Below, piece after piece: positions 42,377 to 43,469 of a stretch of 55,899 bases of DNA. The DNA comes from Nitrospirae bacterium 13_2_20CM_2_62_8. Its GTDB lineage: Bacteria; Nitrospirota; Nitrospiria; Nitrospirales; Nitrospiraceae. The stretch spans positions 1-55,899 of the forward strand of contig MNDM01000054.1 of assembly GCA_001914955.1 (NCBI GenBank), read 5' to 3'. Position numbers and translations under genes: made by a program. The notes beneath the pieces were generated by a model that saw only the letters and a list, made by a program, of their open reading frames with translations, did no database searches and was not told the DNA's origin. The stretch's first letter is position 1. The number at the start of each line of letters is the position of its first letter.

Positions 42377-43063
42377 ATGCGCATTGGTCTTTTCGGCGGA
42401 ACGTTCAACCCCATCCATCGCTGCCACCTGGTCATCGCAGCCCAAGCTCGTGACCGGCTGCGCCTGGATCGCATCGTCTTCATTCCCTCGGGCCATCCTC
42501 CCCATAAGCCGTCGGAGCCCCTGGCAGAGGCCCGACATCGACTTGAGATGGTGCGGCGCGCTATTGCAGAAGATCCTTCTTTCCAGGTGTCAGAGGTGGA
42601 ACTCCGCCGCGCCACCACGTCGTACTCCATCGAGACCGTCCGGACGCTTCGAGGAGAATACGGCCCGAATGCGGAACTGTTCTTCCTCATCGGGCTTGAC
42701 GCGTTTCTCGAGTTTCCCAGTTGGAGGCAGGCATCTGAACTGCTTCAAGCCTGCCACTTCGTCGTCGTGTCGCGTCCGGGCAGCGCGTTTCTGTCCCTCT
42801 CGGCCATGCCATTGCTTCCCAAGATCCCGCCCGGCTTGCTCACGGCGCTGGATGCCCGGAGCCAAGACCGCATTGACGTCCCGATCCCCGGCGGCACCAG
42901 GCTCACCCTCCTGGGGCTCCCGCCCTGTGACGCCTCGGCGTCCGAGATCCGCGACCGGCTCAGAAAGCGGCTGAGCCTGTCACCCCTATTGCCTGCCTCC
43001 GTGGAATCCTATATAATCCGCTTCGGACTTTATCAGGAGGAGAGCGATCGGACCGGAGTCTAA
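42377..43063 (+). CDS. nadD: Nicotinate-nucleotide adenylyltransferase
   Basis: This 228-residue nucleotidyltransferase begins MRIGLFGGTFNPIHRCHLVIA. The family nucleotide-binding motif is GGTFDPIHxGH; here the Gly is Cys (HRCH, residues 14-17), which is unusual. DRIVFIPSGHPPHKP, FLIGLDAFLEFPSW and the C-terminal ASASEIRDRLRKRLS (ISSTxIR-like) support the call. It makes deamido-NAD from nicotinate mononucleotide. It has no visible SD because heptad repeat 10 abuts the ATG. The end overlaps rsfS. Confidence 0.94.
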   Translation: MRIGLFGGTFNPIHRCHLVIAAQARDRLRLDRIVFIPSGHPPHKPSEPLAEARHRLEMVRRAIAEDPSFQVSEVELRRATTSYSIETVRTLRGEYGPNAELFFLIGLDAFLEFPSWRQASELLQACHFVVVSRPGSAFLSLSAMPLLPKIPPGLLTALDARSQDRIDVPIPGGTRLTLLGLPPCDASASEIRDRLRKRLSLSPLLPASVESYIIRFGLYQEESDRTGV

Positions 43064-43469
43064 GCCGAAAGCCCTTGCCATCGCCAGGGCGTGCCTTGAG
43101 AAGAAGGCCAACGATGTCCTGATCCTGCATGTTGCCAAGCTAACCTCATTCACCGATTATCTGGTCTTGTGCTCCGGGGAATCGGAGCGTCAAGTGCGGG
43201 CCATCGCGGACAACGTTGACGCCCACCTCTCCGGCCAGCGCGTTCCTCCACTCAGCATCGAAGGCACCATGACTGCGCAATGGATTCTCCTGGACTTCGG
43301 GGACGTCGTGGTCCACGTCTTCCGGGCCGACATCCGCGACCATTATGGCCTGGAGAGACTCTGGAACGATGCCAGGCGGATCCGGCTGCCGGCAGAACCA
43401 GCCACCGCCCCGGCGTCACCCCTGCGTTCAGCGAAGCGACGTTCCCCGCGGGCGCGGGAACAGGGATAG
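43047..43469 (+). CDS. rsfS: Ribosomal silencing factor RsfS, apparently starting at ATC
   Basis: This is a 140-residue RsfS/YbeB/Iojap protein. It has KPKALAIARACLEKKANDV, LTSFTDYLVLCSGESERQVRAIADNV and WILLDFGDVVVHVFRADIRDHYGLERLW. RsfS binds L14 and blocks subunit joining in starvation. In this frame there is no ATG, GTG or TTG between the upstream in-frame TAA (about 43011) and a TTG at 43167, which would cut off 40 conserved residues. A perfect AGGAGG (43035-43040) lies six bases before ATC at 43047-43049, so ATC is the likely start unless the base is an error. It overlaps nadD by 17 bp; the nadD-rsfS order is usual. The Ala/Pro/Arg-rich tail is longer than usual. Confidence 0.9.
   Translation: MGPESKPKALAIARACLEKKANDVLILHVAKLTSFTDYLVLCSGESERQVRAIADNVDAHLSGQRVPPLSIEGTMTAQWILLDFGDVVVHVFRADIRDHYGLERLWNDARRIRLPAEPATAPASPLRSAKRRSPRAREQG

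Follow-up and report, generated by a model that had tools for sequence, protein, structure and literature searches.

The rsfS locus and its start site

The window (the whole stretch of DNA analysed here, 55,899 nucleotides) carries obgE, proB, nadD, rsfS, a TPR gene and bioB in this order and is contig 23 of a draft genome of 2.0 Mb in 86 contigs that is 73% complete and contains a single copy of rsfS. To judge from the closest named records, the genome belongs to a Nitrospira-like member of the family Nitrospiraceae. The product of this gene covers the whole RsfS domain (PF02410, 3.7e-31, residues 12-106 counted from the ATC discussed below and profile positions 3-98 of 98) and scores 110.9 bits with TIGR00090 against a cut-off of 56.9. 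The features of the start region are as follows:

42377..43063, forward strand: nadD, the last 17 bases of which run into rsfS in a different frame
42989..43017, forward strand: putative sigma-70-like promoter TTGCCT-17-TATAAT, lying within the 3' end of nadD
43014..43016, forward strand: TAA in frame with rsfS, the upstream limit of its reading frame
43035..43040, forward strand: Shine-Dalgarno (SD) sequence AGGAGG, 6-nt spacer to the rsfS ATC, kept in the family
43047..43049, forward strand: rsfS start codon ATC, the sole in-frame candidate behind the SD
43047..43469, forward strand: rsfS coding sequence, 140 codons from the ATC to a TAG stop, with PF02410 and TIGR00090 matches
43167..43169, forward strand: TTG, first canonical codon of the rsfS frame (codon 41), inside the domain and too late

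The original prediction placed the start of rsfS at the ATC at 43047 even though AUC is almost never used as a bacterial start codon, and our analysis bears this out, with conservation across independent genomes as strong support. After the TAA at 43014, the frame reads TCC GCT TCG GAC TTT ATC AGG AGG AGA GCG ATC GGA CCG GAG TCT AAG and contains no ATG, GTG or TTG until the TTG at 43167, which confirms for the window that the first such codon comes 40 codons too late. The perfect AGGAGG claimed six bases ahead of the ATC is likewise present (43035-43040), and its predicted pairing with the 3' end of 16S rRNA amounts to about -11 kcal/mol. Codons 2-40 evolve as coding sequence, with synonymous exceeding non-synonymous codon differences in all four comparisons (3:1, 9:7, 11:10 and 17:11, with a same-genus relative and three others).

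Conservation and replacement of the ATC in the family

We found rsfS in 58 of the 61 genomes searched, which comprised the source genome, the one relative of its own genus (92% identity), and more distant relatives. Across 83 family genomes, the start site reads ATC in 71 (22 genera) and in none of them ATT, ATA or ATG, while the remaining 12, all of a single genus (g18), carry AGC. ATC is also what the named Nitrospira records of another collection show. Comparison with orthologues in close relatives, proposed as a check on the original prediction, therefore yielded no relative with ATG at this codon; the sole replacement is AGC, and every one of the 12 genomes that carry it has gained a GTG one codon upstream.

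Isoleucine codons at the start site are ATC in 70 of 70 cases (a 71st genome, L027, also has ATC), compared to 155 of 220 at four other mostly-isoleucine positions of the same genes, where ATT is common. Because of this difference, the site is, as judged from codon usage, constrained as a codon and not as isoleucine. When each genus is represented by one ATC-bearing sequence, the columns A, T and C are invariant in 22/22 while neighboring bases vary, including several columns just upstream. Under the isoleucine codon shares given above and if observations were independent, the chance of 70/70 would be around 2e-11, a value that is too small given the relatedness of the genomes, and that of 22/22 genera around 5e-4.

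The replacement itself can be followed in genus g18, where some genomes keep the old state with GCG ATC (L209) or ACG ATC (L213), another one has GTG ATC (L208), and the 12 genomes mentioned above have GTG AGC. The combination GTG ATC arose separately in genus g10 (L220) and in the named record L073. In the genomes compared, loss of the ATC is thus confined to those in which a canonical codon had appeared directly before it, and this series is therefore the behavior expected of a start codon and not of an internal codon.

Start codons of rsfS across the phylum

Under a strict rule (no ATG, GTG, TTG or CTG from the upstream stop, or 40 codons, to the conserved core), these codons are missing near rsfS in 81 of the 175 phylum genomes, which belong to 12 of 26 families. 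Within the same order, the ATT of genus g24 follows TAAGGAG or AAGGAGG, and in family f2 an AGGAGG-like sequence precedes ATA or ATC; ATT is also found in order and phylum relatives (L051-L054 and L056-L058). Among farther families, f17 uses ATA (with one ATC) and f9/g46 ATA, while the start in f24/g72 is, by its sequence, most likely ATC. No candidate better than TTA or ATA was found in f11, f19/g70 and f26, and TTA is probably among the rsfS start codons of the phylum. At four loci of f26, f11 and f19 (L178, L193, L252 and L287), the best candidate behind an SD is TTA; we know of no case of TTA as a natural bacterial start. Other Nitrospirota families start rsfS at CTG, TTG or ATG. Some relatives contain a far-upstream in-frame NTG and may make a longer product, which the reading frame excludes in the window.

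Outside the phylum, none of around 48 named loci had an rsfS gene without a canonical start. Among L083-L138, NTG starts are missing only in L087, L093 and L112, which their record titles all assign to Nitrospirota. As a side observation, the record of L083 is titled as a Klebsiella pneumoniae MAG, and its rsfS shows about 51% identity to the Nitrospira query; the name of this record is probably wrong.

SD strength follows the start codon

The mean SD strength is -10.3 kcal/mol in 19 genera without a canonical rsfS start versus -4.1 kcal/mol in 23 ATG genera (outside the family). This contrast gives a Mann-Whitney value of 1e-7 for genera and 5e-5 for family averages (12 versus 11 families), with kinship handled by family averaging only. 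Both codon states occur inside family f3 and inside family f9, and in each of them SD strength follows the codon. We infer selection for a low total initiation rate, achieved either by pairing a poor codon with a strong SD or by using ATG and no SD. A weaker genome-wide trend of the same kind has been described for GUG and UUG (PMC5622118).

In families f21 and f12, the ATG lies 1-11 bases behind a TATAAT or TATACT box in nearly all cases and mostly lacks an SD. The loci with an ATG close to the box are:

Family f21: L181, L184, L185, L187, L188, L192, L202, L254
Family f12: L190, L250, L255, L257, L260, L263

Because the ATG follows the box so closely and without an SD, this arrangement suggests that the rsfS mRNA of these two families is leaderless or nearly so.

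Noncanonical initiation elsewhere in the genome

Our survey of the source genome covered 20 contig pieces (369 kb) with 353 scored open reading frames. Only two of these, rsfS and infC, are recognised genes that begin with an SD-led ATC and carry a coding signal upstream of their first NTG. The other entries of the survey list, judged by eye only, look like antisense shadow frames or noise. Genome-wide relaxed initiation is unsupported by this result and by the neighboring genes, which mostly use ATG: The TPR gene 3' of rsfS has an ATG start in 60 of 60 relatives, as does nadD at 31 of 38 aligned positions, the rest probably being misaligned N-termini.

The infC gene of the source genome (L139) reads AAGAGG TGCAGT ATC GTT CCC at its start. 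In the family, every readable genome that we sampled has ATC as its infC start, and across most of the sampled phylum this start is ATA, ATT or ATC. The idea that infC and rsfS share a codon type everywhere is contradicted by genus g24, which combines an rsfS ATT with an infC ATG that overlaps the thrS stop (TGATG). At L166, L171, L177 and L309, infC appears to start in this way, and start-codon autoregulation of infC may, to judge from this arrangement, have been lost in g24. Separately, we observed stretches between genes, at several sites in the genome (42286-42376 of the window; 730-815 and 1190-1270 of L139), that are rich in related AGCTATTCGCTA-, AGCTGTTGGCTGTT- and GCCATCAGCCATAAGCC-like words, which looks like a dispersed family of short intergenic repeats.

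A probable weak start codon with proposed discrimination by IF3

We consider it very likely that the AUC of rsfS is a real and selected start, presumably weak and discriminated by initiation factor IF3, of the same class as the starts of infC, pcnB, sigR (GTC) and ccpN. IF3 rejects weak third-base pairs (PMC10158994) and represses both E. coli infC and the GTC-started sigR of Streptomyces, in which a change of GTC to a canonical codon or a weakened IF3 raised protein levels (PMC5472188). Reporters in S. aureus that started at AUU or AUA reached around 10% of the AUG level in poor medium, and that of ccpN up to 30% in rich medium (PMC13009471). By analogy, the ordinary initiator tRNA would read the AUC of rsfS in Nitrospira and relatives. 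The near-perfect SD would keep the 30S subunit bound to the mRNA, but the third-base mismatch would lower the efficiency of initiation and expose it to rejection by IF3. Selection would then keep the strong SD paired with the poor codon, and RsfS would be held low, its level rising when IF3 becomes scarce relative to 30S subunits; this last step would be the physiological use of the codon. A low level of RsfS would be sensible because the protein binds uL14 on the 50S subunit and blocks subunit joining, as shown in S. aureus (PMC7125091).

The original prediction had compared rsfS to infC and raised self-regulation as its control. The comparison stands, given that infC also starts at ATC behind an SD in L139, but self-regulation of the infC type does not follow because it is IF3 that rejects poor starts, while RsfS binds uL14. 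We know of no role of RsfS in start-codon choice. Any control of rsfS would therefore be cross-control by IF3, which is plausible, or amount to a constant low set-point.

The latter alternative concerns the purpose of the weak start and not its position: A constant small amount of RsfS would be made irrespective of IF3 levels, and we give this possibility a chance that falls only somewhat short of even. It fits the present data equally well as a response to IF3, and no computed result opposes it. A weak start has precedent in this gene, given that E. coli rsfS uses UUG (PMC10917681), and the AUU of S. aureus cvfC1 lowered expression without any medium-dependent effect (PMC13009471). However, a weak SD would be a simpler way to the same end, and the ATG genera have exactly that.

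The remaining alternatives dispute the position of the start. RsfS could be made as a NadD-RsfS fusion via a frameshift near the nadD stop, or by reinitiation, so that the ATC would be an internal codon. The 17-base overlap in the window would allow this, as would the nadD stop of most relatives, which begins 8-29 bases after the rsfS start. Yet the position of this stop varies freely in relatives, between 14 bases ahead of the rsfS start codon and 440 bases behind it, and thus leaves no fixed slip site, while the codon stays ATC whatever the overlap; moreover, a frameshift needs no SD and leaves the GTG replacement series of g18 unexplained. Since the position of the nadD stop varies relative to the ATC, we dropped this explanation as very improbable.

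The 3' end of nadD also holds a putative sigma-70-like promoter that matches at 10/12 positions (shuffles give 0.0), and in 82 of 83 family genomes the last base of a TATAAT or TATACT box lies 23-36 nt upstream of the rsfS start codon. This box is formed by the nadD codons TAT ATA, and ATA accounts for only about 6% of isoleucine codons (194/3,452 in a genome sample). We predict a transcription start (+1) near 43024 and a leader of around 23 nt that contains the SD alone, and rsfS probably has its own short-leader mRNA.

Translation from the TTG at 43167, the first canonical in-frame codon and as such the likely choice of automatic annotation, has even less in its favor and is ruled out by domain and conservation, because the protein would lose around 30 RsfS domain residues that relatives conserve and that evolve under coding constraint. 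Finally, the window stems from an incomplete draft genome, but a sequencing or assembly error for ATG is ruled out to a probability close to nil by the ATC in dozens of independent assemblies, single-contig genomes included.

Relation to known systems

The reading of the rsfS AUC as an IF3-discriminated weak start invites comparison with the few precedents; apart from infC, very few bacterial genes are known whose start codon is one that IF3 rejects. The autoregulated infC itself (AUU, AUC or AUA) is alike in its odd third base, the SD in front, and conservation over a phylum, but there IF3 controls its own gene, whereas RsfS is no fidelity factor and any control would act in trans. Streptomyces sigR is alike as a gene other than infC with a conserved NTC start behind AGGAGGTG and a product that must stay low (PMC5472188). 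It differs in being a stress sigma factor, described in a single genus, with GTC (32 of 34 genomes; GTT in 2) instead of ATC, demonstrated by Western blots and infC mutants (PMC5472188). The AUA of ccpN in Staphylococcus and Bacillus and the AUU of Staphylococcus cvfC1 are AUH starts conserved together with a strong SD (PMC13009471), and an AUU start of E. coli pcnB is cited in the same work (Binns and Masters 2002, as cited in PMC13009471). These three genes differ from rsfS in identity and function, and the rsfS codon, known from sequence, rotates between ATC, ATT, ATA and probably TTA across the phylum. E. coli rsfS with its UUG (PMC10917681) is the same gene with a poor start, but UUG is one of the canonical starts, which IF3 tolerates, and AUC is not. 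None of the full texts that we searched, a set that leaves many subscription papers outside, links rsfS (ybeB, iojap) to an AUC, AUU or AUA start.

Implications

The odd start of rsfS spans a phylum and sits in a gene that controls ribosome assembly. Its evolution is visible step by step in codon turnover, the trade-off with the SD, and the escape via a neighboring GTG, and gene callers limited to ATG, GTG and TTG must truncate or misplace rsfS in these genomes. Whether IF3 controls other genes linked to the state of the ribosome becomes a simple reporter question. As a tentative extension that we regard as rather unlikely, IF3 might set both subunit anti-association factors by one codon rule: IF3 on the 30S side and RsfS on the 50S side both start at AUC in Nitrospira, so that a shortfall of IF3 relative to 30S subunits would raise both. 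Across Nitrospirota, rsfS would be kept on a third-base mismatch that rotates between ATC, ATT, ATA, and perhaps TTA and GTA, with ATG excluded where the SD is strong. If this were true, the anti-association factors of both ribosomal subunits would be coupled through the response to a lack of IF3.
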